Assembly: GCA_003456175.1 (NCBI GenBank)
Contig: DMPB01000165.1
Span: 37,550 to 61,879 of the forward strand
Length of the DNA stretch: 24,330 bases
Direction: 5' to 3'
From: Chitinophagaceae bacterium
GTDB lineage: Bacteria; Bacteroidota; Bacteroidia; Chitinophagales; Chitinophagaceae
Shown here: positions 46 to 23,830 of the stretch, piece after piece
Layout of the letters: each line of letters starts with the position of its first letter
How positions within the stretch are numbered: position 1 is the first letter of the stretch
Made by a program: the position numbers and the translations under genes
Notes under the pieces: generated by a model
The model's database searches: none
The model's input: only the letters and a program-made list of their open reading frames with translations
What the model was told of the DNA's origin: nothing

Positions 46-1097
46 TGATTGGTGCTAACATCAAACACATCGCGTAGGGCATTGCCCAACAAATTAAACG
101 CAAGCACTAATAACATAATTGCGATACCTGGTGCCAGCGCCAGCAAAGGCTTATTGGTGATAATGAAGTTGTAGTTTTCTTTCATCATTAACCCCCAGCT
201 TGGTTGTGGTGGTTGCACGCCAATACCTAAAAAACTAAGTCCAGCCTCAATAACAATGGCACTTGCAAAATTACTAGCAGCAAGTACCAATATGGGGCCT
301 GCAATATTGGGTAATATGTGCTTGAGAATAATGATATAATGGGGCAAGCCCAATATTTTTGCCGCCTCTATATAAGTAAGATTTTTAACGGCCAACACCT
401 GCCCGCGTACCAACCTTGCTACGCCCACCCACATGGTTAAACCCACAGCTACAAACACCTGCCAAAAACCTTTACCTAATAATAAAGTAAGTGCAAATAC
501 CAATAGTAGCGTAGGTATGCTCCACATTACATTCACCAACCATTGTACTACGGTATCGATGTTGCCACCAAAATAGCCGGCAATACTTCCCAAACAAACC
601 CCTAATAAAAGCGATATTACTACTGCAATACAGCCCACACTAATACTAACCCGTGTGCCGATAATAAGGCGACTTAGTACATCTCTACCAAACTTATCGC
701 TGCCTAAACGAAACAGCAACTGCTGTGGCAATGGCTTGTATAACTGAACAAGGGGAACAGTAAGTGTATCGGTAACGCCGTCATCAACATAGCGTTGTAC
801 AATTATGTTTGTTGGGGTAGTTCGAATTATTTTTTCAATTGGTTGCAGCGTGTAAGGGTATTGGTAACCTTGCCACCAATTACCATTTACCGTAAGGTTA
901 CTCCCCTTTTTTATTAAAAGTACTTGTATTGAAAAGCCAGCTGGTTTATTCGCCAACTCTGGCACAATAGTATTTGCATGGGTACTGTTATCTGGCGCTA
1001 TTGTGTATGCTCCCACGGCAGTAATTAAAGTAACTACAATAATCAGTAATGCTACTAGCGAACGAGGTTGCCTTAATAAAGCCTTTAAAGTTGCCAT
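42..1097 (-). CDS. ABC transporter permease, OppC/DppC family
   Basis: Inner-membrane permease subunit of a peptide/nickel-type ABC importer (BPD_transp_1 family). A first membrane helix lies at about residues 13-33. The family signature LGSDKFGRDVLSRLI follows at 131-145, then about five more helices. The EAA loop that contacts the ATPase is visible at about 244-265 (EAAKILGLPHYIIILKHILPN). Residues 35-130 form a long extracytoplasmic insertion between helix 1 and the signature, much longer than in E. coli DppC/OppC; as far as I recall such insertions are common in Bacteroidota homologues. The ATG at 1097 gives a normal N-terminus. No ATPase, binding protein or second permease is in the window, so the substrate cannot be assigned. 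One copy of the 14-bp motif lies inside (885-898). Confidence 0.92.
   Translation of the reverse strand: MATLKALLRQPRSLVALLIIVVTLITAVGAYTIAPDNSTHANTIVPELANKPAGFSIQVLLIKKGSNLTVNGNWWQGYQYPYTLQPIEKIIRTTPTNIIVQRYVDDGVTDTLTVPLVQLYKPLPQQLLFRLGSDKFGRDVLSRLIIGTRVSISVGCIAVVISLLLGVCLGSIAGYFGGNIDTVVQWLVNVMWSIPTLLLVFALTLLLGKGFWQVFVAVGLTMWVGVARLVRGQVLAVKNLTYIEAAKILGLPHYIIILKHILPNIAGPILVLAASNFASAIVIEAGLSFLGIGVQPPQPSWGLMMKENYNFIITNKPLLALAPGIAIMLLVLAFNLLGNALRDVFDVSTNH
885..898 (+). repeat. 14-bp motif ATTTRCCGYAAGGT, copy 1
   Basis: Exact match inside the permease gene, read there as LTVN. Confidence 0.85.
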
Positions 1098-1106
1098 GAA
1101 TTTGAG

Positions 1107-1232
1107 ATGCCTGAAGGTAAAAAATTAAGATTCGGTAAAAAAGCAATAAGTAGCGGAAAAACCAATAAACGATTTGTAATTTTAAGAGTCTTTCATATAC
1201 CCAAGAATCAACAACCAACTAAAGCAACCTAA
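1107..1232 (+). CDS. Small basic ORF, 41 aa, uncertain
   Basis: ATG at 1107, TAA at 1230-1232. The product is lysine/arginine rich at the N-terminus (MPEGKKLRFGKK...) with a short hydrophobic patch (RFVILRVFHIP). It sits between the divergent start of the permease and the next small ORF, which begins 1 nt after its stop. No Shine-Dalgarno sequence is seen, which is usual in this phylum. It matches no family I recognise and may be chance in AT-rich intergenic DNA; the close spacing to the next ORF is the only supporting sign. Confidence 0.2.
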   Translation: MPEGKKLRFGKKAISSGKTNKRFVILRVFHIPKNQQPTKAT

Positions 1233-1233
1233 C

Positions 1234-1335
1234 ATGAAACAGTTCTTTTTCATTGCATGCTCGCTTGTAGGCTTTATGCTGCTTTGCTTAATCTCATTTT
1301 GGCCCGAAAGAAAGCATATAAGCAAAGTGCATTAA
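1234..1335 (+). CDS. Candidate small membrane protein, 33 aa
   Basis: ATG at 1234, TAA at 1333-1335. The predicted peptide is one strongly hydrophobic segment (residues 4-23, FFFIACSLVGFMLLCLISFW) followed by a charged tail (PERKHISKVH), the layout of a single-pass small membrane protein. Its stop overlaps the stop of the convergent glycosyltransferase (1332-1334). The composition is far from random for an intergenic reading frame, but no homologue family is recognised. Conservation in related genomes would decide. Confidence 0.35.
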   Translation: MKQFFFIACSLVGFMLLCLISFWPERKHISKVH

Positions 1336-2483
1336 TGCACTCTTCTTTGCTTCCATTGGTACGAGCCAAACTTGCCCAACCAACCTGCAACCACAATATA
1401 CACGATATGTAGTGGTTGCATCTTTGGAAAAACAGATAGTAGCTTTTCCTTACGGTAAAAATGGGCTACAGGCCGCATAAATTGTAACTCTATCCATGTT
1501 TTTAGTACCAAGGCCAACAAAGCTGTTACACCAATAGCAACATTTACCAACAACCAAACAGGCAACAACAGTAATACCAAGTTAAAACAATACACCAGCA
1601 CAAGTACCCAAAAAATACGCTTGTCAGAAAAGTGGCTTGCCTTGCTTGCCCAACGTATCCGCTGATTGTAAAAATCGCCCCAAGTAGGCATAGGCTGTGT
1701 ATGCACAACGGCTTCACTACTATACAAATAATGTACTTGTTGCGGGTATTGTTGTTGCATTTTATACATCAGCAACATATCATCGCCGCTAGCAATATTA
1801 TCAATCCCTGCAAAGCCGCCAACTTTATAAAAAGCCGCCTTGCTGTACATTAAATTAGCGCCATTACACATACTATGCACACCTGCACTTACCGCAGCAG
1901 CTGTGATGCCTTGCAAACTCAAAAAATCCAAACATTGAAAAGCACTAACAACAGAACCCGTATGTTCGTACGCTACAGGAGCAGCTACAAATACTGCATT
2001 ATGTTGTTGCAACCAAGCATCAAAATGCTGTAACCATTGAGGCGGTACGGTACAATCGGCATCAGTAGTAACAATGTAATCGTTGGTCGATTGCTCTATA
2101 GCTACTGCAATAGCCTTTTTCTTATAAGCATTCAACACCTCACCTTGCAGGGCATCGGCCAGTTGAATAAGGCGTAGCTGCGAATATTGCTTTTGCAATG
2201 CACGCACTACATCGGCAGTAGTATCGGTACTGTGATCATCTACTACAATTACCTCAAAAAAATGGCTAGGATATTGCTGTTCCAATACCGATCTTAAACA
2301 CTTGCCAATATTTTCAGCCTCGTTTCTAGCAGGAATAATTATCGAAAAAGTATGCTTGGGAGTAGTATTTTCCCTTACGGTAAATGTTAGTAAGCGAAGC
2401 AACCAATACCGATATAGCATTATCAGCACACTGTATGCCAGCGTTAACAATACGATGCAGCCGATAATAAGGTTGATGAGCAT
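1332..2483 (-). CDS. Membrane-anchored family 2 glycosyltransferase
   Basis: GT-A fold inverting glycosyltransferase. One helix at residues 3-26 is followed by a cytosolic catalytic domain beginning FSIIIPARNEAENI (46-59). VVDDHSTD is at 80-87, the metal-binding DAD at 141-143, the acceptor-side GDD at 233-235 and the Q-x-x-R-W motif QRIRW at 274-278. Three or so helices follow (about 289-330 and near the C-terminus). This order is typical of processive or lipid-acceptor GT2 enzymes making cell-envelope glycans or glycolipids; donor and acceptor cannot be read from the sequence. It lies 19 bp downstream of the hydrolase on the same strand, so the two are probably one operon. Two copies of the 14-bp motif lie inside it. 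Confidence 0.9.
   Translation of the reverse strand: MLINLIIGCIVLLTLAYSVLIMLYRYWLLRLLTFTVRENTTPKHTFSIIIPARNEAENIGKCLRSVLEQQYPSHFFEVIVVDDHSTDTTADVVRALQKQYSQLRLIQLADALQGEVLNAYKKKAIAVAIEQSTNDYIVTTDADCTVPPQWLQHFDAWLQQHNAVFVAAPVAYEHTGSVVSAFQCLDFLSLQGITAAAVSAGVHSMCNGANLMYSKAAFYKVGGFAGIDNIASGDDMLLMYKMQQQYPQQVHYLYSSEAVVHTQPMPTWGDFYNQRIRWASKASHFSDKRIFWVLVLVYCFNLVLLLLPVWLLVNVAIGVTALLALVLKTWIELQFMRPVAHFYRKEKLLSVFPKMQPLHIVYIVVAGWLGKFGSYQWKQRRVH
1447..1460 (-). repeat. 14-bp motif, copy 2
   Basis: Two end mismatches; inside the glycosyltransferase gene, read as FYRKE. Confidence 0.7.
2372..2385 (-). repeat. 14-bp motif, copy 3
   Basis: One end mismatch; inside the glycosyltransferase gene, read as FTVR. 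Confidence 0.8.
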
Positions 2484-2502
2484 TAGAACAAAGAAAAGCC
2501 GA

Positions 2503-3348
2503 TTAGCGATTGGTTGCTACACTTTCATGCAAGGTTGCAATAAATGGAAGCCAATGTTCCATCCATTTGGCTTGTAGTAACTGATGGCCTCCAGGTAGTA
2601 CAGTTACGGTAGCATTATTGCCCATCAAACGTTTAAAAGCTTCACCTCGCTTGTATTTGATAATTTTATCGTACTTACCAAACACCATGCGAACAGGTAT
2701 TGCATATTGTTGCAGCAGTAGTGCTAACGCTTTTCTGTTCGGGTAAAAAGCTCGCATCACCGTCCACCGTTGGTATAACAAAGCCCTAGCATTGGGTTCG
2801 TGTAAGTAATGCATCGCAAATTTCACCACACTACTGTTAATCAGTTTAAGTTGTTGAGTAAGTTGTAACAGCTTAAAAATCCAAGCAGGATTTTCCATAG
2901 TGCGTTTAAAAAACCGATTTCCCCATGTTGTTTGTGTGCTGATGTAATACCAAAAATTCGTTTGCAAGCCATCGGAAGCAAGCAAAAAAAGCGAGTTCAT
3001 AAGTTGCGGATAGTGTTCCGCAAAGCTTAAAGCAACGCGGCCTCCCATACTATAACCCATCACATGAAATTGCTTTCCAGCAAAAGTGGGTATCTGTTGT
3101 ATGCAATTATATAAATCGGAAGGTGTAAATGCTTCAGTTTCGGGCCAAGTACTGCCATGATGTGCAGGAAAATTGATAGCTAGTAGCGTGTAATTTACCG
3201 TAAGGTGTGCTGCCAATGCTTCAAAATAGTGGGCTCCTTCTCCATATCCATGCAAGCACAACAATAATTGCGGTCCACCTTGCCACAACTTATATGTGAT
3301 GGTAGCACCCTGTTGCAGGTGAATTGATGGTTGTGCTGTATGACTCAT
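2503..3348 (-). CDS. Alpha/beta-fold hydrolase
   Basis: A 281-aa cytosolic alpha/beta hydrolase. HGYGEG at 33-38 is the oxyanion-hole region. The nucleophile elbow is G-Y-S-M-G-G, with Ser100. Asp227 (in FGKYDKII) and His255 (in PGGHQLL) complete a plausible Ser-Asp-His triad. The spacing fits small esterase/acyl-hydrolase members of the family. The substrate is unknown. It is the first gene of the pair with the downstream glycosyltransferase, which may place it in envelope lipid or glycolipid metabolism, but that is inference from context only. A TACATTTG element upstream would give a leader of about 40 nt. One 14-bp motif copy is inside (3193-3206), encoding LTVN. Confidence 0.88.
   Translation of the reverse strand: MSHTAQPSIHLQQGATITYKLWQGGPQLLLCLHGYGEGAHYFEALAAHLTVNYTLLAINFPAHHGSTWPETEAFTPSDLYNCIQQIPTFAGKQFHVMGYSMGGRVALSFAEHYPQLMNSLFLLASDGLQTNFWYYISTQTTWGNRFFKRTMENPAWIFKLLQLTQQLKLINSSVVKFAMHYLHEPNARALLYQRWTVMRAFYPNRKALALLLQQYAIPVRMVFGKYDKIIKYKRGEAFKRLMGNNATVTVLPGGHQLLQAKWMEHWLPFIATLHESVATNR
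3193..3206 (+). repeat. 14-bp motif, copy 4
   Basis: Exact; inside the hydrolase gene, read as HLTVN. Confidence 0.85.
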
Positions 3349-3912: not shown

Positions 3913-5706
3913 ATGAGTACTGTAACGAACGAAACAAAGGCCCTTAAGGGCGGCGAATGGCTCATCAAAGAGAGCAACGCTTTTGAAACCTTCATCCCCG
4001 AAGATTTTGATGAAGAGCAACGCATGATTAAAGATATGTGCTTGCAGTTCTTACAAGCCGAAGTATGGCCTATCATAGACCGTATTGATAAGCTAGAACC
4101 CGGACTCATGCCTTCGTTATTAGAAAAAGCGGGCGAACAAGGCTTACTAAGCACCAGCTTTCCTGAAGCGTATGGTGGCCTTGGTAAAGATTTTATTACC
4201 AGCACTTTGGTGAACGAAGGTTTGGGGGCAGGTCATAGTTTTAGTGTAGCAGTGGCTGCACATACAGGTATTGGTACTTTACCCATTCTATATTTTGGTA
4301 CAGAAGCACAAAAGCAGAAATACATACCTAAACTTGCTAGCGGCGAGTGGAAGGGTGCCTACGGTTTAACAGAACCTAACAGCGGCAGCGATGCATTAAG
4401 TGCTAAAACTACGGCTAAACTAAGCGACGATGGTAAGTACTACATCTTAAACGGACAAAAATGTTGGATCACCAACGGAGGCTTTGCCGATGTATACACC
4501 GTGTTTGCAAAAATAGATGGCGATAAATTCACTGGTTTCATTGTTGAACGTGGTATGGAAGGCTTTACCCAAGGTGCTGAAGAGCACAAAATGGGTATTA
4601 AGGGCTCGTCAACCGTACAACTTTACTTTCAAGACTGTAAAGTGCCCGTAGAGAATGTACTTGGCGATATTGGAAAGGGCCACGTAATTGCTTTCAATAT
4701 CTTAAACATCGGTCGTTTAAAGCTTGATGCTGCTGCTTTAGGCGGTGCAAAACATGCTACTAACGTTTCTATTGAATATGCCAACACACGTGAGCAATTC
4801 AAACAACCCATCAGCAATTTCGGAGCCATCAAGCATAAAATGGCAGAAATGGCCATTCGTCTTTGGGTGTGCGAAAGTGGTTTGTACCGTTCTGCAAAGT
4901 GGATCAGCGATAAAGAACACGAACTACTAGAAAGTGGTAAGCCCTTCAACGAAAGCTTACTCGGTGCAGCAGAAGAATATGCCATTGAGTGCGCCATGCT
5001 TAAAGTATACGGCAGCGAAGTACTCGATTATGTGGTAGACGAAGGCGTACAAATACATGGTGGTAATGGCTTTAGCGATGAATACATGATTAGCAAAGCC
5101 TACCGCGATAGCCGCATCAATCGTATCTACGAAGGCACCAACGAAATTAACCGACTACTTACCGTTGATATGGTGTTGAAGCGTGCTATGAAAGGCAAGC
5201 TCGATTTAATGACACCTGCCATGGCGGTACAAAAAGAGTTAATGAGTATTCCTGATTTTGGTAGTGGCGAAGAAGAAGCTTACGCAAAAGAAAAGAAATA
5301 CATCACCAACTTCAAGAAAGCTATCTTAATGGTAGCAGGCGCAGCCGTTCAGAAATTAATGATGCAGCTCGAAAAAGAGCAAGAGGTATTATTAAACATA
5401 GCTAATATGGCTATTGAAACCTATCATGCAGAAAGTGCCTTGTTAAGAGCTATTAAACTTACAGAGCAAAAAGGTGAAGCAGCAACAACAGCCGAGTGGG
5501 ATATTGTTCGCACTTATATTACCGATGCCGCCGATCGTATCAACAAAGCAGGTAAAGATGCACTTAACGCATTTGCCGATGGCGATGAACTTCGCATGAT
5601 GCATATTGGCTTAAAGCGTTTTACGAAAGTAGAACCTTTCAACACCATCGCTGCACGCCGCCGTATTGCCAATAAGTTAATTGCCGATAATGGTTACCGC
5701 TTCTAA
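3913..5706 (+). CDS. Acyl-CoA dehydrogenase, long VLCAD/ACAD9-like form
   Basis: FAD enzyme that introduces the alpha-beta double bond in acyl-CoA, the first step of beta-oxidation. Visible motifs are GLTEPNSGSD (151-160) and WITNGG (185-190) of the flavin/substrate site, QIHGGNGF (380-387), and the catalytic base Glu407 in RIYEGTNEI. At 597 aa it is about 200 residues longer than the common 380-aa form. The extra C-terminal helical domain (about 430-597) is the hallmark of the VLCAD/ACAD9-like group, usual in Bacteroidota. The ATG at 3913 was chosen because the ATG at 3902 runs into a stop after four codons. It follows marR by 35 bp and is probably co-transcribed. No 14-bp motif copy occurs in this gene. 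Chain-length preference is not readable. Confidence 0.95.
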   Translation: MSTVTNETKALKGGEWLIKESNAFETFIPEDFDEEQRMIKDMCLQFLQAEVWPIIDRIDKLEPGLMPSLLEKAGEQGLLSTSFPEAYGGLGKDFITSTLVNEGLGAGHSFSVAVAAHTGIGTLPILYFGTEAQKQKYIPKLASGEWKGAYGLTEPNSGSDALSAKTTAKLSDDGKYYILNGQKCWITNGGFADVYTVFAKIDGDKFTGFIVERGMEGFTQGAEEHKMGIKGSSTVQLYFQDCKVPVENVLGDIGKGHVIAFNILNIGRLKLDAAALGGAKHATNVSIEYANTREQFKQPISNFGAIKHKMAEMAIRLWVCESGLYRSAKWISDKEHELLESGKPFNESLLGAAEEYAIECAMLKVYGSEVLDYVVDEGVQIHGGNGFSDEYMISKAYRDSRINRIYEGTNEINRLLTVDMVLKRAMKGKLDLMTPAMAVQKELMSIPDFGSGEEEAYAKEKKYITNFKKAILMVAGAAVQKLMMQLEKEQEVLLNIANMAIETYHAESALLRAIKLTEQKGEAATTAEWDIVRTYITDAADRINKAGKDALNAFADGDELRMMHIGLKRFTKVEPFNTIAARRRIANKLIADNGYRF

Positions 5707-5800: not shown

Positions 5801-5889
5801 GGGGCGTTACGGCGCTTGAGCCGCCGTGCTTTCCGTTACAATACACAGCTTGCCAGCAAGCTATGTATTTACACTTCAATCACTAACGC
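5801..5889. repeat. Palindromic repeat element, about 89 bp
   Basis: The ends GCGTTA (5804-5809) and TAACGC (5884-5889) pair with each other. Inside are a hairpin ACGGCG/CGCCGT (5809-5827) and a near-perfect 14-bp stem (AATACA-C-AGCTTGC, loop CA, GCAAGCT-A-TGTATT, 5840-5869). The skeleton GGGCGTTA...GCTTTCCGTTACAAT...hairpin...CACTTCAATCACTAACGC resembles an interspersed intergenic palindrome I recall from Bacteroidota genomes; this is memory, not a search. It lies between a terminator and the kinase gene, and makes the kinase reading frame look 47 codons too long. Only one copy is in this window. Confidence 0.55.
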
Positions 5890-5956: not shown

Positions 5957-8035
5957 ATGTTGCAACAAAGCCAACCATACCGCCTCATCTTATCGATGTT
6001 TCTTGGGCTGAGTACATTTATTGGCATAATAAGTTGCACCAACACATCTAACACCAATAAAATATCAGCATCAGAACTTACTTTCAATACAAATCATCGC
6101 ATTATAGATAGCTTTATCAGCACCTATCAAACCGATAAGGCCATTATATTTCTGCAGCAACTGAACAACGAACCTCAAAACAATTACCTCCGATATTATT
6201 ACTGGATGAACTATTACAGAGGTGCCGAGCATTTTGATTCACTACGCATTTATGTAGATAGTGCTATTAACACCATTAGCAAGTTAAGCAACTATCAAAA
6301 CTATAAAGCCTTATTAAGCGATGCCTATGCCAAACGTGGCGAAGCAGAGCTTGGCTCGCTTCAATACGAGCAAGCCACCAACAGTTTTTTTAGTGCCAAA
6401 CAAATTGCTTACGAACGTAACGATACTTGTGCAGCAAGCCGCTACACCTACAGGTTGGGTATGGCCTGCTACAGGCAAGGTAATTACACCCTTGCAGCAC
6501 GAAATTTTCGGCAAGCTTTTAGTGAATCAGAACATTGCGATGCCAACAATTACACACAGTATTATAAACGCCAAGAACTACTCAACAATATAGCATTAAG
6601 TTATAGCAAACAGAACTTACACGATAGTGCACTACTGTACTATCAAAAAGCACTCGATTATTTAAAAGGAGGCGAGCAAAGGTTTCCGCAGTTGGCTAAA
6701 AAACTAGAAGTAGCAAGAGCTGTTATTTATGGTAATATCGCAACGAGCCTATTGGTATTAGGCGATACTGCTACAGCAGAACAACATTTACTGCAAAGTT
6801 ATCAAACCAATAATGCACCATTAGGCGAACAAGCCGATGCACAGTATTCTGCTTTAAAGCTCATTAATATATACTTAGCGCAGCAACGCTGGAGTGAAAG
6901 TAAAGTATTACTAGAAAGGGTGGGGGCGTACATGGATACTACCAAAAATGTACCCGAACGCATCAAAATATTTTGGAATAGAGGCATGGCTATGCTATAC
7001 CAAAAGGGTTTCAAAAGTTATGCTTTAGCTAATACTTACTATACCACTTACGACAGCATCAAACTTAAGTTCGATAGCGCCCAGACCAACCTCACTCAAA
7101 ACGATATTACACTACAATTAAAGCAGTTAGAAAAACAGTACGAGCTTCGTAATTTGTTGAAAGAACAAGAACAGCAGCAACGTATTAACACTATTGCCTG
7201 GAGTTTGGTAATTATTACCATTATTACTTTAAGCATTATTCTGTGGTTGCTTCAAAAAAGCAGGCGGCATGTTCAAGCATTAAAAGACTCGAACACTACG
7301 ATTGAACAGCAAAAAGCAGCTTTAAACAGTGCTTTGCAAAAAGCAGAAACCGAAGCATCCGATAAAGATAAAATTGTACGTGTGGTAGCGCACGACTTAC
7401 GCAATCCATTAGCTGCTATGTCGTCGTTATCTAACTTGATTATCGATAACCCACACAGTTTTAACGACAGTCTTGAGCCTATTCGTATGATTAAAGCTAG
7501 CTGCGATAGCAGTTTAGATTTAATTAACGACTTGCTTGAATCGGCCGATTTTCAACAACAAAAGGCGCTTACAAAAACTCCTATTGGCTTGCAAGAGTTA
7601 CTGAAGCATGCTGTTGAAATGATGCGTTTTAAAGCCGATGAAAAACATCAATCGCTTGTACTACAGCTACCTGAAACACCGGCAACAGTACTTGTTAGTA
7701 AAGAAAAGATTTGGCGTGTTTTAGCCAATTTAATTGCGAATGCTATCAAATTTAGTCAGCATAAAAGCATGATTGAAATTGGAGCTACTGTGAACGATAG
7801 CGGTACTTTAATTTATGTGAAAGACGATGGTGTAGGTATTCCTGCACGTTTGCAGCCATATGTGTTTGATGCCTTTACCACAGCCAAACGCAAGGGCACA
7901 CAAGGCGAACCTACCTTTGGTTTGGGCCTATCTATTTGCAAGCAAATTATGGATGCCCATGGCGGCAGTATTTATTTTGAAAGTGAAGAGTTAGGAGGCA
8001 CTTGCTTTTATATTCATTTACCGCAAGGTGCATGA
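5957..8035 (+). CDS. Lipobox-bearing TPR sensor histidine kinase
   Basis: 692 aa from the ATG at 5957. The frame is open upstream to a TTG at 5816, but that stretch lies on the palindromic repeat, and the ATG gives a sensible signal sequence. Residues 9-27 look like a lipoprotein signal ending in a lipobox (GIISC, Cys27). A helical TPR-type region follows (about 45-400, including tyrosine/alanine-rich repeats such as AEHLDS- and GNYTLAARNFRQAF-like units), then one membrane helix at about 412-432. The kinase core has the H-box AHDLRNPL with His479, the N-box near Asn591 (NLIANAIKFS), G1 DDGVGIP at 623 and G2 GLGLS at 655. The sensor would therefore be periplasmic and the kinase cytosolic. There is no receiver domain, and no regulator gene is adjacent; the receiver at 11070 is 3 kb away. 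The last codons carry a 14-bp motif copy (HLPQG). Confidence 0.88.
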   Translation: MLQQSQPYRLILSMFLGLSTFIGIISCTNTSNTNKISASELTFNTNHRIIDSFISTYQTDKAIIFLQQLNNEPQNNYLRYYYWMNYYRGAEHFDSLRIYVDSAINTISKLSNYQNYKALLSDAYAKRGEAELGSLQYEQATNSFFSAKQIAYERNDTCAASRYTYRLGMACYRQGNYTLAARNFRQAFSESEHCDANNYTQYYKRQELLNNIALSYSKQNLHDSALLYYQKALDYLKGGEQRFPQLAKKLEVARAVIYGNIATSLLVLGDTATAEQHLLQSYQTNNAPLGEQADAQYSALKLINIYLAQQRWSESKVLLERVGAYMDTTKNVPERIKIFWNRGMAMLYQKGFKSYALANTYYTTYDSIKLKFDSAQTNLTQNDITLQLKQLEKQYELRNLLKEQEQQQRINTIAWSLVIITIITLSIILWLLQKSRRHVQALKDSNTTIEQQKAALNSALQKAETEASDKDKIVRVVAHDLRNPLAAMSSLSNLIIDNPHSFNDSLEPIRMIKASCDSSLDLINDLLESADFQQQKALTKTPIGLQELLKHAVEMMRFKADEKHQSLVLQLPETPATVLVSKEKIWRVLANLIANAIKFSQHKSMIEIGATVNDSGTLIYVKDDGVGIPARLQPYVFDAFTTAKRKGTQGEPTFGLGLSICKQIMDAHGGSIYFESEELGGTCFYIHLPQGA
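8016..8029 (+). repeat. 14-bp motif, copy 5
   Basis: Exact; last codons of the histidine kinase (HLPQG). Inverted partner of the copy at 8112 across a terminator. Confidence 0.85.
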
Positions 8036-8111: not shown

Positions 8112-8125
8112 ACCTTACGGTAAAT
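8112..8125 (-). repeat. 14-bp motif, copy 6
   Basis: Exact; begins 1 nt after the nfu stop codon. Confidence 0.85.
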
Positions 8126-8839: not shown

Positions 8840-8853
8840 ATTTACCGTAAGGT
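8840..8853 (+). repeat. 14-bp motif, copy 7
   Basis: Exact; overlaps the hydroxylase stop codon. Confidence 0.85.
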
Positions 8854-9732: not shown

Positions 9733-9746
9733 ACCTTTCGGTAAAT
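9733..9746 (-). repeat. 14-bp motif, copy 8
   Basis: One mismatch (CCGAAAGG); 5 nt beyond the dnaN terminator T-run. Confidence 0.7.
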
Positions 9747-11555: not shown

Positions 11556-12047
11556 TTGATAGCGGTGCTACCTCAAAAACGACTCACACCACAACAGGCC
11601 CTACCTAAATTGGCACATTACTGTGCTTATCAAGAGCGGAGCCATGCCGAAGTGAAGCAAAAACTTGCCAGCCTCGGCGTATTTGGTACCGATGCCGAGC
11701 ACATCATAAGTCATCTAATTACCGAAAACTATTTGAACGAAGAACGTTACGCCCAACAATTCGCTCAGGGCAAGCATCGCATGAAAGGCTGGGGTAAGCT
11801 AAAAATAAAACATGCACTCCAACAACAACAAGTAAGCAGCTTTAACATCATACTAGCGCTAAAAAGTATTGATACCGCAGCTTACGAAGCCAAAGCATTA
11901 CAGTTGGCAATACAAAAAAGCCAACATTTACCGCAAGGTAACCAGTACACACAACAAGCCAAGTTAATCGCCTACTTACAACAAAAAGGTTACGAAAGTC
12001 AAGTAATTCAAAACGCCTTACGGCAAATGAAAAACGCCGAAGAATAA
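11556..12047 (+). CDS. recX: RecX-family regulator of RecA
   Basis: 163 aa. It consists of repeated three-helix units typical of RecX: ALPKLAHYCAYQERSHAEVKQKLASLGV, then HIISHLITENYLNEERYAQQFAQGKHRMKGWGKLKIKHALQQ, the family's most recognisable stretch, then two weaker repeats ending AYLQQKGYESQVIQNALRQM. RecX binds the RecA filament and limits its activity. No ATG is available at the 5' end; TTG at 11556 or GTG at 11565 is the likely start, with no clear ribosome site. recA is not adjacent. Two 14-bp motif copies in inverted orientation lie in the last 130 bp. Confidence 0.85.
   Translation: MIAVLPQKRLTPQQALPKLAHYCAYQERSHAEVKQKLASLGVFGTDAEHIISHLITENYLNEERYAQQFAQGKHRMKGWGKLKIKHALQQQQVSSFNIILALKSIDTAAYEAKALQLAIQKSQHLPQGNQYTQQAKLIAYLQQKGYESQVIQNALRQMKNAEE
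11926..11939 (+). repeat. 14-bp motif, copy 9
   Basis: Exact; inside recX (HLPQG). Inverted partner of the copy at 12016. Confidence 0.85.
12016..12029 (-). repeat. 14-bp motif, copy 10
   Basis: One end mismatch; near the 3' end of recX, read as ALRQM. Confidence 0.75.
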
Positions 12048-13510: not shown

Positions 13511-13524
13511 ATTTACCGTAAGGT
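13511..13524 (+). repeat. 14-bp motif, copy 11
   Basis: Exact; 1 nt from the kdsD stop codon. Confidence 0.85.
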
Positions 13525-14705: not shown

Positions 14706-16994
14706 ATGGCAACAACAAGAAGACCCGCAGTAAAGAAAGCAGCCACCGTTCGCCGCACCCCGAAAACTGTTAAAGGCAGTACCACCATCACCGAAAATCA
14801 TGGTTACGATATATATGCAGGTTTAGAAAAGTTCTTTGGCTTCAAAAAATTTAAAGGTCGCCAAGAAGAAGCTATCAATAGCCTATTAAACGGCCACGAC
14901 ACTTTTGTTATTATGCCTACTGGCGGTGGCAAAAGTTTGTGCTACCAACTACCTGCCATGCTTATGGAGGGCTGTGCTATTATTGTTAGTCCACTCATTG
15001 CCCTTATGAAAAATCAGGTAGATCTGGTACGAGGTTATAGCGAAAGCGATGATGTAGCTCACTTTTTAAACTCGTCTTTAAATAAAGGACAAATAACACA
15101 AGTTAAAAGCGACTTGCTCAAGGGAAGCACCAAATTATTATATGTTGCCCCAGAAACCCTTACCCGACAAGATAATCTTGAATTTTTCAGCGATTTAAAA
15201 ATATCATTTTTTGCAGTTGATGAGGCCCACTGTATTAGCGAATGGGGCCACGATTTCAGACCAGAATATCGCCGCTTACGGGAAATGATGGATGAAATAA
15301 ATCCTAACATTCCTGTAGTAGCACTTACAGCTACAGCTACTCCAAAAGTGCGAAGCGATATCGAAAAGAACCTCGGTTTGCGTAAGCCACAAATTTTCAT
15401 TAGCAGCTTTAACCGCGACAACCTGTATTACGAAATACAGCCTAAAATCAAAAAAGACCAAACGGTTAAGCATATTGTAAAATATATTGCCCAGAACAAG
15501 GGCAAGAGCGGTATCATTTATACACTTAATAGAAAAACTACCGAAGAATTAGCAGAAATATTAGTTGCTAATAATATTAAAGCAGTAGCCTACCACGCCG
15601 GCCTCGATGCTAAAGTTCGTGCCGATAGGCAAGATCAGTTTTTAAGTGAAGATGTGCAGGTAATTGTGGCTACCATTGCCTTTGGCATGGGCATCGATAA
15701 ACCCGATATTAGGTTTGTAATGCACTATAATATTCCCAAAAGTATTGAGAACTATTATCAAGAAACCGGTCGTGCGGGTAGAGATGGCCTCGAAGGCAAG
15801 TGCATTTTATACTACAGCCATAAAGATGTAAGTAAGCTAGAACACCTCATGCGTGATAAGCCGCTTACCGAACGCGAAATCAACGCTCAGCTTATCAATG
15901 AAATGGTAGCTTTTGCGGAAAGTAGTGTGTGCCGACGCAAAATTTTACTCCATTACTTTGGCGAAAATTGGGATACTAAAAATTGTGGTAACTGCGACAA
16001 CTGTAAAAATCCAAAAGATAAAATTGAAACCCAAGAAGAGGTTGTAAAACTTCTTAAAGTGGTACGTGCATTAGACGAACGCTTCCCGGCCGAATATGTA
16101 ATTAATATCGTTACAGGTAAGCTTACGCCTCAAATTGGCATGTTCCGCCACGATGTACTTGCAGAGTTTGGAATTGGTAAAGACAAAGACGAGCATTTCT
16201 GGAATAGCCTCATCCGCCAAATGCTGCTAGAAAACCTCATTCAAAAAGATATTGAAGAATATGGCTTGCTTAAATTCACCGAACATGGCGAAGCTTATTT
16301 AAAGCAACCAAGCCCCTTCAAAATTGTACTCAACAATTTATTTGAAGATGCTAATGCCGATGATGATGAATGCGAAGGAGGCAGTAATAGTGGCGCCGCT
16401 ACCGATGCCGTACTTTTTGAAATGCTCAAAGAACTACGCCAAAAAGAAGCTAAGAAAAAAAGCCTACCGCCCTTTGTAATTTTCTTAGAAACCAGCCTGC
16501 AAGATATGGCCACGATGTACCCCACATCTATGGCCGAACTCGAAAAGTGCAGCGGTGTAAGCAAAGGCAAAGCCTTACGTTATGGTAAGCCATTTTTAGA
16601 GTTAATTGCCCGATACGCCGAAGAAAACAATATTGAAAAGCCAGACGATTTTGTAATGAAATCGGTGGCTAATAAGAGCAGTAATAAAATTTTTATCATT
16701 CAAAACGTTGATAAAAAAATACCACTCGATACCATTGCTAAAACCAAAGGATTACAGCTACACGAGTTACTTGAAGAAATGGAAACCATCGTAGCTAGCG
16801 GTACCAAACTCAACGTGAATTATGCTGTTGACGATATGCTAACAGAAGATGAACAAGATGAAATTATAGAATACTTTAAAAGTTGCGAAACCAGTAGCTT
16901 ACAAGTAGCACAAGAAGAACTAAGCGACCTCGGTGTAGAATGGGAACAACTAAAACTGATGCGTATCAAATTTTTGTGTGAATACGGCATTTAA
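14706..16994 (+). CDS. recQ: ATP-dependent DNA helicase RecQ
   Basis: 762 aa. After a Lys/Arg/Thr-rich tail (1-32) comes the helicase core: Walker [15 protein letters not shown] (70-83), DEAH box 172-175, the aromatic-rich loop [16 protein letters not shown] (176-191) typical of RecQ, and motif [12 protein letters not shown] (352-361). A zinc site follows in the RQC region, with Cys409, Cys427, Cys430 and Cys433. An HRDC domain lies at about 575-640 ([25 protein letters not shown]...[14 protein letters not shown]). The last 110 residues form a further helical, HTH-like domain ([22 protein letters not shown]), making the protein about 150 residues longer than E. coli RecQ; longer RecQs are usual in Bacteroidota. 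It unwinds DNA with 3'-5' polarity in recombination and fork repair. A terminator follows. Confidence 0.97.
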
Positions 16995-16996: not shown

Positions 16997-17010
16997 ATTT
17001 GCCGTAAGGC
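16997..17010 (+). repeat. 14-bp motif, copy 12
   Basis: One end mismatch; 3 nt after the recQ stop. Inverted partner at 17070 across the recQ terminator. Confidence 0.8.
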
Positions 17011-17069: not shown

Positions 17070-17083
17070 ACCTTGCGGTAAAT
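17070..17083 (-). repeat. 14-bp motif, copy 13
   Basis: Exact; downstream of the recQ terminator. Confidence 0.85.
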
Positions 17084-19022: not shown

Positions 19023-19036
19023 ATTTACCGCAAGGT
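19023..19036 (+). repeat. 14-bp motif, copy 14
   Basis: Exact; 4 nt after the stop of the alpha-solenoid gene. Confidence 0.85.
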
Positions 19037-19162
19037 TATTCACCGTATAAATCTCTGCGTTCGTATAGAATTGGGCTAAAAAAGGATAAACGGTACGTTG
19101 TGCATTAAACCTTTTTGCAACTTGCAGGTTCTACGAAGAGTTTCTTAATTTATTTTTTTGCT

Positions 19163-22018
19163 ATGAGAAAACTTTACCTCTTATTGGTGAGTACGTTGCT
19201 AACCTCGGCGCTATGGGCTCAATCTGGCACTGTTGAAGGTGCTTTAAAAGATACCGTTAACAAACAAAATTTAAAAGCAGCTACGGTTAGTGTATTAGAG
19301 TCAAGCGATAGCAGCTTGGTAACTTTCGGACTTAGTACCGATGGTGGTAATTTTTTAATTAAGAATATACCTTACGGTAAATATCTGCTGCAGGTTAACT
19401 TTCAAAGCTTTGAAGCCAAGTTCGTTCCATTTATAATTGATGCCCAAAACCCACAAGCTAAATTGGGCAATGTATACTTACTACCACAGGCCAACATGTT
19501 AGATTCCGTAGTGGTATCACAAAGTCCCGTTCGAATTAAAGGCGATACGGTAGAGTACAATGCTGGTAGCTTTAAAACCAAACCCAACGCTGTAGTAGAA
19601 GATGTGTTGAAAAAATTACCCGGTGTACAAGTGAATAAAGACGGTACTATTACTGCACAAGGCGAAACTGTACAACGTGTTTTGGTAGATGGTAAGCGTT
19701 TCTTTGGCGACGACCCCAAACTAGCAACACGTAACTTACCTAGCGAGGTAATTGATAAAATTCAAGTGTTCGATGCCCAAAGCGATCAAAGTGCATTTAC
19801 AGGTTTTGATGACGGTACCCGTCAAAAAACCATCAACATCACTACCAAAAAAGACAAAAGGAAAGGCTTTTTTGGCAAAGGAATGGTAGGTGGCGGAACG
19901 CAAGACCGTTTTGAAAGCAGTTTAAGTTTCAACCGCTTTAATGGTAATCAACAACTTACATTCATTGGGCAAGCCAATAATGTGAACCGTCAAGGGTTTA
20001 GTTTGCAAGACATACTTGGCGTAATGAACAGCGGTGGTGGTGGTTTTGGAGGTGGTGCACGTGGCGGCGGCGGTGGTGGCCGTGGTGGCGGTGCACTCGT
20101 ACAAAACCTATTGAGTGGTACCAATAATAACGGTATCACTACCATTTATGCCGGCGGACTTAACTACCGCGATGTATGGAGCAAAAAAACCGAAGCTTAT
20201 GGTAGCTATTTTTATAACAATAGCCGTGTAGATAGAAATCAAACATCTTTTACAGAAAACCTAATTAAGGGCGATAGCAGCATTTTTCAAACCAGCTTAA
20301 CCGATAACGTTAATAAGAATCAAGTACACCGTTTCAACTTTAACATTGAAACCAACTTCGATTCTATGAACAGCCTCATTATTCGTCCGAATGTTACCTA
20401 TCAGAACAGTAGAACCGATAATGAAACCACCACCACAAGTATTCGTGGCCAAAGCAAGTTACTAAATAGCAGTACTGCTCGCAGTACTAGTAATAGCGAA
20501 GGCTACAATGCCAATGCCGATATTACATTTAGGCACCGTTTCAAAAAACGTGGCCGTACTTTTTCCGTTAATACACAGTTTGGTGGTAATCAAAACGATA
20601 GAACAGGCTACAACTTCAGCATAGTTACTACGAACCCGCCATTGGGTGGCAGCAGAATAGATACTATTAATCAGCAAAACATTAACAACACCCTTGGGCG
20701 CAACTTTAGTAGTAATTTGAGCTATACTGAGCCTATTGCCAAAGGCATTTTAGCAGAAATTAGTTACAACTATGGGTACACATTCAACAACAACGATCGC
20801 AAAACATTTGATTTCGGAAAAACCAGCGGCCAGTTCGATGTTGTAAATACCAACCTCACCAACAACTTCGAAAATACCAATATTAGCCACCGTGGTAGCC
20901 TTGGCTTACGTATGCAAAAACAAAAGTATAATGGTGGTATTAGCTTAGGCGTACAATCGGCAACACTTGAAAGTTACAACGTAACCAAAGACAGTACCCT
21001 TAGCCAAAAGTTCATTAACCTATTCCCTTCGGCCAACTTCACGTATAATTTTTCGCGTAGCAAAAACCTTCGCTTCAATTACCGTGGCCGAACCAACCAA
21101 CCTAGTGTAACACAGTTACAACCCGTGGTAGATAATAGTAACCCACTATACATTCAAGAAGGTAACCCTGGCTTAGCACAAGAATTCAACAACAGCTTCA
21201 ACCTCAACTATAGCCAGTTTGATGTTGTAACCTTCCGTAACTTTTTTGTAGCACTTAATGGTAGCGTAACAGCCGATAAAATTGTAAACAGTACCATATA
21301 CACACCCGCTGGCGGACAAATTGTACGACCCATTAACATGAGTGGTGTATTTAATGTAGCAGGTTTTGTGAATTTCGGCTTCCCCGTTAAAAAGCTGAAA
21401 GGCAACATCAATTTCGGTACCAATATTACCCATGCACAAGATGTTAGTATGGTTAATAACATAAAAAATTATACCCGCAATACCAATACAAGCCTTACGG
21501 TAAATTTCAATACAACCAAGTTTGAAAACCTCGATATCAACATATCTAGCACCACTAATTACAACTTTGTTCGTTACACCTTACAACCCGAACAAAACGC
21601 CAACTTCTTCACCCAAATTTTTGGTTTAGATCTTACCCATACTTCTAAAAAAGGTTTGATTTTAGGCAGCGAGTTCGATTATACTTACAATGGTGGCCGT
21701 ACCGATGGTTTCAACCAAAGTATTCCTCTCTTAAACCTCAGCATTGGTACACAAATCTTTAAAAACAAAAGCGGCGAACTAAAACTCACCGTGTACGATG
21801 TGCTTAACCAAAACCAAAGCATAGTACGAACTGTAACAGATAATACCGTACGCGATGTAAGAACCAATATTCTTACACGCTACGCCAGCCTAACATTCAC
21901 CTATAACCTCCGAAAATTTGCTGGTGCCAATATGCCAATGCCATCGTTTATGAACAATATGTTCCGCAGATCGCAGCGTACCGGTGGTGGTATTATGATG
22001 GGTGGTCCGGGCATGTAA
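19163..22018 (+). CDS. Outer-membrane beta-barrel protein with carboxypeptidase-regulatory-like domain (TonB-receptor-like)
   Basis: 951 aa from the ATG at 19163; the frame is open further to a TTG at 19115, but this ATG opens a clean signal peptide (MRKLYLLLVSTLLTSALWAQ). Next come a CarboxypepD_reg-like beta domain (about 20-105), then a plug-like region with DSVVVSQSPVRIKGDTVEY and GVQVNKDGTITAQGETVQRVLVDGKRFFGDD. A long Asn/aromatic-rich barrel of the OMP_b-brl type (about 225-920) follows. A glycine-run linker at about 290-311 and a Met/Gly-rich tail (GGGIMMGGPGM) are low-complexity. Such proteins sit in the outer membrane and resemble SusC-type receptors, but no SusD partner is present, so a transported substrate cannot be named. 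Two 14-bp motif copies are internal and one follows the stop by 3 nt. Confidence 0.9.
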   Translation: MRKLYLLLVSTLLTSALWAQSGTVEGALKDTVNKQNLKAATVSVLESSDSSLVTFGLSTDGGNFLIKNIPYGKYLLQVNFQSFEAKFVPFIIDAQNPQAKLGNVYLLPQANMLDSVVVSQSPVRIKGDTVEYNAGSFKTKPNAVVEDVLKKLPGVQVNKDGTITAQGETVQRVLVDGKRFFGDDPKLATRNLPSEVIDKIQVFDAQSDQSAFTGFDDGTRQKTINITTKKDKRKGFFGKGMVGGGTQDRFESSLSFNRFNGNQQLTFIGQANNVNRQGFSLQDILGVMNSGGGGFGGGARGGGGGGRGGGALVQNLLSGTNNNGITTIYAGGLNYRDVWSKKTEAYGSYFYNNSRVDRNQTSFTENLIKGDSSIFQTSLTDNVNKNQVHRFNFNIETNFDSMNSLIIRPNVTYQNSRTDNETTTTSIRGQSKLLNSSTARSTSNSEGYNANADITFRHRFKKRGRTFSVNTQFGGNQNDRTGYNFSIVTTNPPLGGSRIDTINQQNINNTLGRNFSSNLSYTEPIAKGILAEISYNYGYTFNNNDRKTFDFGKTSGQFDVVNTNLTNNFENTNISHRGSLGLRMQKQKYNGGISLGVQSATLESYNVTKDSTLSQKFINLFPSANFTYNFSRSKNLRFNYRGRTNQPSVTQLQPVVDNSNPLYIQEGNPGLAQEFNNSFNLNYSQFDVVTFRNFFVALNGSVTADKIVNSTIYTPAGGQIVRPINMSGVFNVAGFVNFGFPVKKLKGNINFGTNITHAQDVSMVNNIKNYTRNTNTSLTVNFNTTKFENLDINISSTTNYNFVRYTLQPEQNANFFTQIFGLDLTHTSKKGLILGSEFDYTYNGGRTDGFNQSIPLLNLSIGTQIFKNKSGELKLTVYDVLNQNQSIVRTVTDNTVRDVRTNILTRYASLTFTYNLRKFAGANMPMPSFMNNMFRRSQRTGGGIMMGGPGM
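19369..19382 (-). repeat. 14-bp motif, copy 15
   Basis: Exact; inside the barrel gene, read as IPYGKY. Confidence 0.85.
21492..21505 (-). repeat. 14-bp motif, copy 16
   Basis: One end mismatch; inside the barrel gene, read as LTVNF. Confidence 0.8.
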
Positions 22019-22021: not shown

Positions 22022-22035
22022 ATTTACCGCAAGGT
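22022..22035 (+). repeat. 14-bp motif, copy 17
   Basis: Exact; 3 nt after the stop of the barrel gene. Inverted partner at 22104. Confidence 0.85.
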
Positions 22036-22103: not shown

Positions 22104-22117
22104 ACCTTACGGTAAAT
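22104..22117 (-). repeat. 14-bp motif, copy 18
   Basis: Exact; just beyond the stop of the MerC-like gene. Confidence 0.85.
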
Positions 22118-22125: not shown

Positions 22126-22518
22126 TTAATGGTTACAATCGTCGCTATGGGCATGGTTGTGTACACGACAAAGTTTGTAATTAAGCCAGTGGCCAGCTAC
22201 AATAGCCAATACTGCAGGTAACAAAAACCATAAATGCAATTCGTGCCAAATTACTTTAGCCACCAAACAGGCAATACCCAGCGTAAATAAACCAATAGGC
22301 CACCAACTATGATGGTGCTTTTTATAGCCATGCTGCAAGCTGTACACACCCAGTGCAAAGGCTACAGCAATCATTACATATTCAAAGGTGGCATTATCGA
22401 GCAGTTCAACACCAAATAAAGGAATGCTACTTACCACTAATGGTAATAAGGCACAATGTATGGCACAAGCTACCGAAGCAGCAATACCCAACGCATCCCA
22501 ATTGAACTTAACTCCCAT
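22126..22518 (-). CDS. MerC-domain membrane protein
   Basis: 130 aa with four hydrophobic helices. The first helix carries C-A-I-H-C (residues 18-22) followed by ALLPL, the arrangement seen in the MerC family, where cysteines in helix 1 bind metal. The C-terminus is His/Cys-rich (CRVHNHAHSDDCNH), as is the loop KKHHHSWW, suggesting metal binding. MerC proteins were described as mercury importers, but chromosomal Bacteroidota members next to Fur-family genes more likely handle another metal; that is inference. The gene is divergent from sco-fur, and its predicted promoter (TTG at 22558-22560, TATATTTG at 22529-22536) overlaps a 21-bp dyad, so repression by the neighbouring regulator is likely. 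Confidence 0.85.
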   Translation of the reverse strand: MGVKFNWDALGIAASVACAIHCALLPLVVSSIPLFGVELLDNATFEYVMIAVAFALGVYSLQHGYKKHHHSWWPIGLFTLGIACLVAKVIWHELHLWFLLPAVLAIVAGHWLNYKLCRVHNHAHSDDCNH

Positions 22519-23311: not shown

Positions 23312-23314
23312 GGT

Positions 23315-23734
23315 ATGCAAGAGAAAGTAGCCCAACTGCTCAAAAAAAATCAAATGAGTGTTACTGCAAGTCGTACCAAAATATTGGAGCTATTCTTGGC
23401 ATCGCAGGGAGCGTTGGCACATGCCGATATTGAACGATTAACCAACGGATTTGATCGGGTAACCATTTATAGAACGCTGCAAACTTTTGTAGATAAGGGT
23501 TTGGTACATACGATACCCACCGCCGACAACAGCGTACGCTATGCTTTGTGCAAAGATGAATGCTCGCAAGGCCACCATCACGATGATCATGTACATTTCA
23601 TGTGCGACGACTGTGGCAATACCTATTGTTTAGATCATATACATGTGCCGGCAGTGCATTTGCCGCAAGGTTTTGTGGTAAAACAAACCGATGTTGTAGT
23701 TAGCGGTATTTGTAGTAATTGTACCTTACGGTAA
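23315..23734 (+). CDS. Fur-family metal-responsive regulator (possibly Zur-like)
   Basis: 139 aa. The N-terminal winged helix (about 1-80) includes TASRTKILELFLASQGALAHADIERL and the recognition helix DRVTIYRTLQTFVDKGLV. The C-terminal domain has His-rich HHHDDHVHF and two cysteine pairs (CDDC near 97-100 and CSNC near 133-136), the structural zinc site of the family. Fur, Zur and PerR cannot be separated safely from motifs; the neighbours (MerC-like and SCO proteins) and the non-Fur-like dyad at 22553 favour a metal other than iron. It is co-transcribed with sco. Its last codons (T-L-R-stop) are made by a 14-bp motif copy that contains the stop codon; another copy encodes HLPQG nearby. Confidence 0.92.
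   Translation: MQEKVAQLLKKNQMSVTASRTKILELFLASQGALAHADIERLTNGFDRVTIYRTLQTFVDKGLVHTIPTADNSVRYALCKDECSQGHHHDDHVHFMCDDCGNTYCLDHIHVPAVHLPQGFVVKQTDVVVSGICSNCTLR
23658..23671 (+). repeat. 14-bp motif, copy 19
   Basis: Exact; inside the Fur-family gene (HLPQG). Confidence 0.85.
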
Positions 23735-23736
23735 AT
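23723..23736 (-). repeat. 14-bp motif, copy 20
   Basis: Exact; contains the stop codon of the Fur-family gene. Partner at 23817. Confidence 0.85.
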
Positions 23737-23770
23737 GAAACCACGCAACAAGAACGTATCAACAATTATA

Positions 23771-23809
23771 TCAGAGATAAGGGGCGCCGTTGGCGCCCCT
23801 TATCTCTGA
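23771..23809. terminator. Long hairpin between convergent fur and enoyl-CoA hydratase genes
   Basis: Perfect 18-bp stem with core AAGGGGCGCC / GGCGCCCCTT and loop GTT. No T-run on either side, so termination strength is uncertain. Motif copies at 23723 and 23817 flank it. Confidence 0.75.
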
Positions 23810-23816
23810 GTGCAAC

Positions 23817-23830
23817 ATTTACCGTAAGGT
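23817..23830 (+). repeat. 14-bp motif, copy 21
   Basis: Exact; 13 nt beyond the stop of the enoyl-CoA hydratase gene. Confidence 0.85.

Follow-up and report, generated by a model that had tools for sequence, protein, structure and literature searches.

A hairpin word dispersed over a Chitinophagaceae genome, a candidate tag of self DNA

What kind of signal is the 14-bp word ATTTRCCGYAAGGT, which recurs within and between genes on both strands of a 24,330-nucleotide stretch of Chitinophagaceae DNA? The stretch, called the window in the following, is C167:37550-61879 of the host genome (G000), a metagenome-assembled genome (MAG) of 3.12 Mb in 213 contigs which is 81% complete. A sequence-only reading of the window had counted 21 copies, 11 in one orientation and 10 in the other, and had proposed a DNA uptake sequence or another genome-wide signal. 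Judged by the covariation of its two arms, the word is a base-paired hairpin whose stem varies between two and three pairs with complementarity retained, and the copies on each strand keep a distance from one another irrespective of those on the other strand. These two properties, together with the restriction of the word to one genome among those searched, guide the interpretation given below.

Copy number and restriction to one lineage

With up to two mismatches allowed, the window contains 15 exact copies of ATTTRCCGYAAGGT, five with one mismatch and three with two, 23 in all, compared with a mean of 0.92 and a largest value of 4 in shuffled sequences. The earlier count agrees with this total if two of the sites with two mismatches, 6786 and 13700, are left out; the latter was rejected as a member of the hairpin-word family. 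When compensated variants and variants with a 2-bp stem are counted, the family has 24 members in the window, nine intergenic, eight in sense and seven in antisense orientation within genes (Table 1). The over-representation is neither near chance nor confined to the window: the whole host genome contains 946 exact copies, 448 on the forward and 498 on the reverse strand, and none of the reversed pattern, so that a genome-wide signal present on both strands, as first proposed, is borne out. For the core TTTRCCGYAAGG the count is 1879 and that of its reversed control likewise 0, and the best 10-mer of the host lies 146-fold above a Markov model. The window is about twofold richer in exact copies than the genome on average (0.62 vs 0.30 per kb).

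The idea that the motif is shared with relatives had to be abandoned, as none of the other family genomes searched has more than 22 core copies. The exact word occurs 0–4 times in each of 58 relatives, twice in the congener (G001), and the core 0–22 times in each of 393 other genomes of the family, which partly overlap the 58, with five copies in the congener. A few of these genomes exceed their reversed control for the core (G397, 22 vs 4; G184, 17 vs 3; G249, 16 vs 3; G410, 15 vs 1). Likewise, TTTACCGTAAGG is found 1132 times in the host and 0–5 times in 394 other genomes drawn from the class. The pattern [ACT]TTT[AG]CCG[ACT]AAGG, called class A in the following, has a single copy in 80 DnaN loci of named genomes (1.16 Mb; the best 80 of 562, mostly Chitinophagaceae such as UBA1930, Foetidibacter, Limnovirga, Sediminibacterium and others). 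The make-up of these DnaN relatives assigns the host to Chitinophagaceae, within Bacteroidota. The congener aligns to the first 20 kb of the window, mostly with 66–79% identity, and a de novo word search in 340 kb of its genome yielded nothing comparable, its best 10-mer being 11-fold above the Markov model. Because of the 1879 core copies in the host and their rarity in the congener and the other genomes, the word appears, within the range of these searches, to be a trait of recent origin in one species or a narrow lineage.

Paired stem and strand-separate spacing

The word begins with 5′-(C)ATTT, followed by a stem of 2–3 bp (RCC..GGY, AC..GT, GC..GC or ACT..AGT), the loop GYAA and the complementary arm. 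In 96 exact copies the preceding base is C in 82% and the following base in 1%, and no other flanking position is conserved. Complementarity was tested by giving the 5′ arm and the loop and then reading off the 3′ arm. The expected partner followed in 364 of 546 cases for ACC (GGT), 81 of 107 for GCC (GGC) and 133 of 190 for AC (GT), and in addition for GC (GC, 28/57), ACT (AGT, 16/34), ACG (CGT, 5/11) and ACA (TGT, 6/41). Some paired cases were also seen for CC (5/19) and CCC (3/8) and few for GCT (3/39), GCA (4/37) and GCG (1/14); AAC (0/7), ATC (0/16), TCC (0/9) and TC (2/37) showed no excess of complementary arms. Six of seven altered-loop controls gave isolated paired cases only. The seventh, G[AG]AA, showed pairing with ACC in 15 of 25 cases and thus belongs to the family as a minor loop form. 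TYAC loops after TTTRCC, first taken as loop variants, proved to be opposite-strand members in a long palindrome (24 of 25 are followed by AAA). We also set aside a 4-bp-stem class, ACCC..GGG, as support, since most of its copies are genic and the outer pair is often missing.

At the outer position the pairs A-T (379) and G-C (82) stand against A-G (75), A-C (54), A-A (41), G-G (8), G-T (7) and G-A (2). At the inner position C-G is found 506 times, T-A 22, A-T 10 and G-C 7 times, and all other combinations together 15 times. In a held-out set of 18 further host stretches (297.0 kb, 9.4 kb of which are N), in which the first base of class A was left open, the odds ratio for the outer pair is 144 (A/G and T/C cells; p 7e-16). 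The covariation persists when intergenic copies alone are considered (ACC to GGT, 145/180; GCC to GGC, 23/27; AC to GT, 39/43). Predicted DNA folding energies are −1.7 kcal/mol for ACC, −3.4 for GCC, −0.8 for ACT and 0 for AC. Neither a fixed duplex word nor a pair of half-sites acting independently would lead one to expect a stem that varies in length with its complementarity retained.

The second property is the spacing. In the first set of 60 host stretches including the window (735.7 kb, 693.2 kb without masked N), neighbouring class-A copies less than 1 kb apart lie on the same strand in 44 and on opposite strands in 148 cases, with 89.9 same-strand pairs expected from strand relabelling; the held-out set gave 19 and 54, with 34.7 expected. 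Same-strand spacings below 500 bp number 28 instead of 61.1 ± 5.1 in the first set and 13 instead of 21.4 ± 3.0 in the held-out set (p 0.003), and the coefficient of variation of the spacings in the first set is 0.755 compared with 0.913 after relabelling. For all pairs in 1.03 Mb the ratio of same to opposite strand is 6/59 at 12–100 bp, 18/48 at 100–300 bp, 22/48 at 300–600 bp and 45/69 at 600–1000 bp, and in the successive bins between 1 and 4 kb it is 84/83, 87/88, 150/180 and 144/140. Scaled to the bins of 1–2 kb, same-strand pairs are depleted up to 1 kb, whereas opposite-strand pairs exceed the baseline below 300 bp and match it between 300 bp and 1 kb. The same holds for neighbours below 1 kb that lie wholly inside genes (26 same, 80 opposite). 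Pairs of a 2-bp-stem and a 3-bp-stem member are found on the same and on opposite strands in 40 and 96 cases for AC and in 5 and 17 for GC; because the 2-bp members avoid 3-bp members of the same strand, the stem variants appear to share one job. The tiling interval per strand is ∼2.1–2.5 kb.

Polarity of the chromosome could be judged by GC skew only, as the replication origin and terminus (ori/ter) could not be placed in the MAG. By this proxy the strict strand bias to replication that the earlier reading had named as speaking for another role is not seen: 199 copies in stretches of at least 8 kb lie on the G-rich strand and 205 on the other, and thus replication polarity is, as far as GC skew tells, not the cause of the spacing. 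Signals of the KOPS or matS type also do not fit, as the strands are mixed at the kilobase scale and copies occur in 51 of the 52 sampled 8-kb segments. Neither does the linear, orientation-neutral duplex word known from the DNA uptake sequence (DUS) and the uptake signal sequence (USS) agree with the stem covariation and the same-strand depletion. Hairpin covariation and strand-separate tiling both point to a signal whose reading seems to involve one strand, probably in the form of single-stranded DNA.

Close inverted pairs with 12–60 bp between their starts are arranged minus-plus in 25 and plus-minus in nine cases. Among 20 minus-plus pairs of the first set with a spacer below 60, ten have a spacer below 20 and six one of 30–39; examples lie at L011:16557-16599, L012:4776-4812 and L047:8874-8905. 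Long stems could form from such pairs, and the pairs may serve as terminators in addition, as they do in Neisseria; those inspected have no obvious T-run. Two near-identical inverted pairs 5 kb apart (L037:7100-7155 and 12254-12309), whose 32-nt spacers differ in one base, represent a small duplication.

Position relative to genes

Genes of the samples were called with our own simple hexamer caller, not a published tool, and masked N (42.5 kb in the first and 9.4 kb in the held-out set) was treated as non-coding in the following counts. Intergenic DNA makes up 12.4% of the first set with N included, and 210 of the 471 class-A copies of this set are found there; the copies within genes comprise 91 in sense and 170 in antisense orientation. 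The held-out set, 91% of which is coding sequence, has 72 intergenic, 33 sense and 69 antisense copies. The intergenic density is highest between convergent genes (4.5 per kb) and lower between codirectional (2.2) and divergent genes (1.6), and within 100 nt past stop codons the copies are distributed nearly evenly between the orientation of the gene (78) and the opposite one (67). Inside genes the distribution along the gene is flat for either orientation. Thus, the 3′-end bias reported from the window does not stand as phrased and is better described as an intergenic enrichment with its maximum between convergent genes. The statement that in-gene copies are read in several frames is confirmed, as all frames are found in the sample. 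About twice as many in-gene copies are antisense as sense (232 vs 122, 354 in all), and the antisense copies are mainly in the frame giving [x]LTVN or similar, for which codon fit could be the reason.

The 52 sampled segments of 8 kb contain 6.2 copies on average. The poorest are L011:1-8000 (no copy, 30% GC, a tyrosine recombinase gene at a distance of ∼5 kb) and L017:8001-16000 (one copy), which carries glycosyltransferase and capsule genes; only these two copy-poor segments were inspected. L011:1-14100 comprises the tyrosine recombinase gene (12794-14062), a histidine kinase/LytTR pair and an 805-amino-acid protein without Pfam match, and the genes called in it are free of class-A copies.

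How did the in-gene copies arise? At the recX copy of the window, which is translated as HLPQG, 62 of 76 RecX alignments are gap-free within four residues, and the 30 displayed relatives have residues other than HLPQG at this site. Of 13 in-gene sites that could be aligned to sampled homologues of the congener (2-bp-stem members included), 11 are ungapped with base changes and two are gapped, and three further sites fell outside the congener alignments. Replacements between host and congener are, for example, PYGK/PVGK and HLPQG/KLPAG. As 11 of 13 sites are ungapped, the word within genes seems mostly to substitute bases and not to be inserted, mutation and conversion being indistinguishable here.

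Table 1. Members of the hairpin-word family in the window (positions and strands refer to the window)
Member	Position	Strand	Location
ATTT-ACC-GTAA-GGT hairpin word, exact	885..898	+	antisense, ABC-transporter permease gene 42-1097
variant TTTT..GGA	1447..1460	-	sense, glycosyltransferase gene 1332-2483
variant with GGG end	2372..2385	-	sense, glycosyltransferase gene 1332-2483
exact	3193..3206	+	antisense, alpha/beta hydrolase gene 2503-3348
2-bp stem, TTTT-GC-GTAA-GC	5278..5289	-	antisense, acyl-CoA dehydrogenase gene 3913-5706
compensated stem, ATTT-ACT-GCAA-AGT	6786..6799	+	sense, histidine kinase gene 5816-8035
exact	8016..8029	+	sense, end of histidine kinase gene 5816-8035
exact	8112..8125	-	directly beyond stop of NifU-like gene 8127-8726
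exact	8840..8853	+	fatty acid hydroxylase gene 8853-9782, at its 3′ end, on the other strand
GAAA loop	9733..9746	-	sense, close to 5′ end of ORF 8853-9782
exact	11926..11939	+	in recX, translated HLPQG
GCC..GGC stem	12015..12028	-	antisense, end of recX
exact	13511..13524	+	directly beyond SIS/CBS gene 13526-14485 (3′ side), on the other strand
2-bp stem, GTTT-GC-GTAA-GC	15376..15387	+	sense, recQ
GCC..GGC stem	16997..17010	+	3 nt past recQ stop
exact	17070..17083	-	opposite strand to 16997 copy
exact	19023..19036	+	4 nt past stop of gene 17469-19019
exact	19369..19382	-	antisense, outer-membrane protein gene 19115-22018
variant with GGC end	21492..21505	-	antisense, outer-membrane protein gene 19115-22018
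exact	22022..22035	+	4 nt past stop of gene 19115-22018
exact	22104..22117	-	beyond stop of MerC-family gene 22126-22518
exact	23658..23671	+	FUR-family gene 23315-23734, translated HLPQG
exact	23723..23736	-	antisense, 3′ end of FUR-family gene 23315-23734
exact	23817..23830	+	beyond 3′ end of enoyl-CoA hydratase-family gene starting 23844, opposite strand

A 13-bp hairpin (17026-17054) separates the copies at 16997 and 17070. Immediately upstream of the copy at 9733..9746 lies a terminator-like hairpin (9780-9758), in view of which the true start of the open reading frame (ORF) 8853-9782 may be later. The dnaN gene of the window (9803-10918, 1.1 kb; at most 83% amino-acid identity to relatives) is free of the word. 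The gene 17469-19019 (516 amino acids) has no Pfam match at 1e-3, and the congener has a homologous stretch with 66% DNA identity.

A second, unrelated dispersed word, TTGCGTCGCACTCTTG (as a 20-mer CTTGCGTCGCACTCTTGTAC; L073, L076), occurs in 82 of 244 genomes drawn from the family, with a reversed control of 0. It reaches its maximum of 1423 copies in G230, followed by G093 (811), G163 (758) and G081 (546). A sample of 182 kb from G230 has 66 copies, 59 of them between genes, and the flanking sequence is conserved in part for tens of bases; because of this, the second word looks like a repeat of the repetitive extragenic palindrome (REP) or terminator type rather than an uptake word.

Candidate function, rival explanations and known systems

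Two processes expose either strand over ∼1 kb, namely natural transformation, in which one strand enters the cell, and resection at breaks. The reading that we favour, with confidence and doubt about evenly balanced, is that the word is a species-specific, genome-wide candidate self-DNA tag of natural transformation, similar to a DUS in its role, which would be read as a single-stranded hairpin and independently of a pilus. Incoming DNA of the same species would be favoured by an uptake or strand-processing step that recognizes the hairpin on the strand being handled. One copy would serve a handled tract of ∼1 kb, so that nothing would be gained from another copy less than 1 kb away on that strand, whereas one on the other strand would be of benefit. 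Copies born by chance would then spread through biased recombination, that is, by molecular drive. Uptake sequences spread in this way are characteristically restricted to a lineage and occur both in gaps and, without alignment gaps, in proteins.

The reader would probably be a component of a competence system of the Bacteroidota type that works without a pilus. The host genome encodes ComEC and DprA and, in a frame of 313 amino acids, a ComEA-like protein with three HHH_3 matches. With the PF00437 profile for the ATPase of type IV pili, Tad and type II secretion systems no convincing match was found in the 81% complete MAG; two partial matches (25.2 bits at a cut-off of 24.9, and 18.6 bits) cover fewer than 60 of 370 positions. 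Thus, the check for competence genes suggested by the earlier reading turned out positive for these three proteins and negative for the pilus, and a route via a pilus receptor, as used by known DUS, is unlikely. We take the missing ATPase as telling against this route rather than against uptake itself, since Riemerella uses other outer-membrane parts. In the passages of PMC8459023 on this genus, ComEC, DprA, ComF, RecA, an HHH protein, a DUF1343 protein, an outer-membrane protein with a carboxypeptidase-like domain and a DUF5689 protein are given as essential for transformation. The original proposal of a DUS-like element is supported by the abundance, the occurrence on both strands, in genes and gaps and in several frames, the ungapped copies, the absence of G-rich bias and the competence genes, and a linear word read via a pilus is made unlikely by the hairpin, the strand-separate spacing and the lack of a convincing pilus ATPase. 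More tentatively, and with doubt prevailing, we propose a new class of tag, a hairpin word read on single-stranded DNA and tiled per strand, which would let pilus-less Bacteroidota recognize their own single-stranded DNA during gene exchange and would have arisen since the split from the genus-mate.

Several observations weigh against the favoured reading. All host results come from a single MAG which is 81% complete. For the 2-bp AC stem no unaided fold is predicted, and therefore a protein would be needed to stabilize the short forms, if they are folded. The outer pair is weaker in genes (ACC to GGT in 45/91 copies in sense and 76/127 in antisense orientation). In the held-out set the coefficient of variation of the spacings is not significantly reduced (0.857 vs 0.916, p 0.13), and neighbours 2–4 kb apart give a mixed picture, as those in genes are on the same strand in 27 and on opposite strands in ten cases, which matches independent tiling, and the remaining ones in 26 and 48, which does not. 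Copy number is correlated with GC content over the 52 segments (r 0.55), which may explain the poor ones; because counts track GC content, the view that these segments are acquired DNA is only suggestive. A search of the 81% complete host genome for DUF5689 (PF18942), the candidate for DNA binding at the cell surface in Riemerella competence, was negative; this domain is present in 15 of 19 genomes of the relatives' draw including the congener, and its absence from the host may be an assembly gap. Finally, known uptake words are described in the sections of PMC1939737 at hand as non-palindromic, with ∼10% arranged as inverted repeats and with fragment uptake independent of orientation. For this reason the hairpin and the strand-separate features speak for either a new reading step or a role outside uptake.

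Among the rivals, a Chi-like recombination signal is the strongest, even if we consider it unlikely. Such a signal would be read directionally on single-stranded DNA by an enzyme of the RecBCD/AddAB type or another resection machine and copies would be needed on each strand, which agrees with the range of ∼1 kb over which copies keep apart on each strand separately and with the presence of copies within genes and throughout the sampled chromosome. However, recombination machines are conserved, and the word is not enriched in the congener or the other genomes searched; in addition, a Chi-like role does not account for the enrichment outside genes (210 of 471 copies), and 14–15 bases with a hairpin differ from the described Chi words. 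The missing G-rich-strand bias is a weak argument in the same direction.

Next comes another reader of single-stranded hairpins, for example, a nuclease, an HUH enzyme or a defence system that would spare tagged self DNA in transfer, replication or phage attack. We hold this to be improbable as well. It would explain hairpin covariation plus strand-separate tiling, and the two copy-poor, low-GC stretches would be in line with it, but no candidate enzyme was identified and no transposase of the Y1_Tnp/RAYT type was found. Viral contigs contain no match to the inverted pair, and the 15-mer is found in 47 viral stretches in single copies only, a raw count for which no chance expectation was computed.

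Binding of a dimeric protein of the nucleoid, of repair or of segregation to a double-stranded site, with RCC and GGY as half-sites, is suggested by the imperfect dyad, the wide dispersal and the intergenic preference. We regard it as very unlikely, since independent half-sites do not predict the covariation of the outer bases (see the odds ratio of 144), nor would such a site require complementarity at variable stem length or a strand-specific depletion.

Slightly less credit can be given to an RNA element, that is, a GNRA-tetraloop hairpin for processing, stability or termination of transcripts. GYAA is indeed a GNRA loop on a closing C-G pair, the predicted RNA energies are favourable (−3.2 kcal/mol for ACC, −5.2 for GCC) and copies cluster at the 3′ sides of genes. 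Nevertheless, in-gene copies are mostly antisense (170 of 261; held-out set 69 of 102), their orientation past stop codons is near even, their distribution along genes is flat, and the window has no Rfam match at gathering scores. An intrinsic terminator was rejected in view of the T-run on the 5′ side, the 261 of 471 copies in genes and the near-even orientation past stops.

The weakest alternative is an insertion repeat of the REP type or a miniature inverted-repeat transposable element, which we judge highly improbable despite the hairpin, the high copy number, the intergenic enrichment and the close inverted pairs, as flank conservation ends about one base from the word on each side, copies in genes, where 261 of 471 lie, are mostly gap-free where aligned (11 of 13 sites), and PF01797 (Y1_Tnp) remained unmatched in the 81% complete MAG; a RAYT/IS200 element is rejected on the same profile result.

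To our knowledge, two proteobacterial groups have so far been shown to possess uptake sequences. Among the papers listed in literature searches, which did not cover subscription papers and preprints, none reports a word of this kind from Bacteroidota; text matches to ACCGTAAGGT, among those listed, were unrelated by title, and longer strings were absent from these. If the favoured reading is true, the word would be a third origin of uptake sequences, with a paired stem and strand-separate spacing, and self-marking of DNA would take place at a single-strand step. This would imply a hairpin reader not yet known in a pilus-independent competence system. With core copies at 1879 in the host and five in the congener, it would also be a young natural example of molecular drive.

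How does the host word compare with known systems? Chi sites are directional and are read on single-stranded DNA; they are short linear words without hairpin and have a leading-strand bias in E. coli. The host word would share the directional single-strand reading and is unlike Chi in being a hairpin without G-rich bias. REP elements of RAYT are short dispersed hairpins with a constant 5′ flank which are mostly extragenic and are inserted, whereas over half of the host copies are in genes and mostly ungapped, and no Y1_Tnp was found. Integron attC sites are bound to cassettes and not tiled over a chromosome as the host word is. They resemble it in their hairpin form, being folded DNA hairpins recognized by proteins (PMC11641012).

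The closest parallels are the uptake words themselves. Neisseria DUS (ATGCCGTCTGAA) likewise has more than 1000 copies in genes and gaps and forms close inverted pairs, as stated in portions of PMC2397512 and PMC2346458. The former also relates, in the text available, that DUS spacing is tied to the length of conversion tracts, that inverted DUS pairs are terminators, and that many recent DUS came via recombination and not by point mutation. In contrast, a hairpin is described only for the host word, and DUS is read by the type IV pilin ComP (excerpt of PMC12061091). Pasteurellaceae USS (AAAGTGCGGT, ACAAGCGGTC; DUS and USS words after PMC2346458) are similar in copy number and in that one orientation is commoner in genes (extract of PMC2346458; here antisense, 232 of 354). 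The reverse complement of the host word, ACCTTGCGGTAAAT, has GCGGT in common with both USS, which is probably a coincidence. Significant even spacing of uptake words is reported in work cited in the accessible part of PMC1939737. The same part describes USS as non-palindromic, and the host word differs from them, as far as they are described there, in its paired stem and in its strand-separate spacing.

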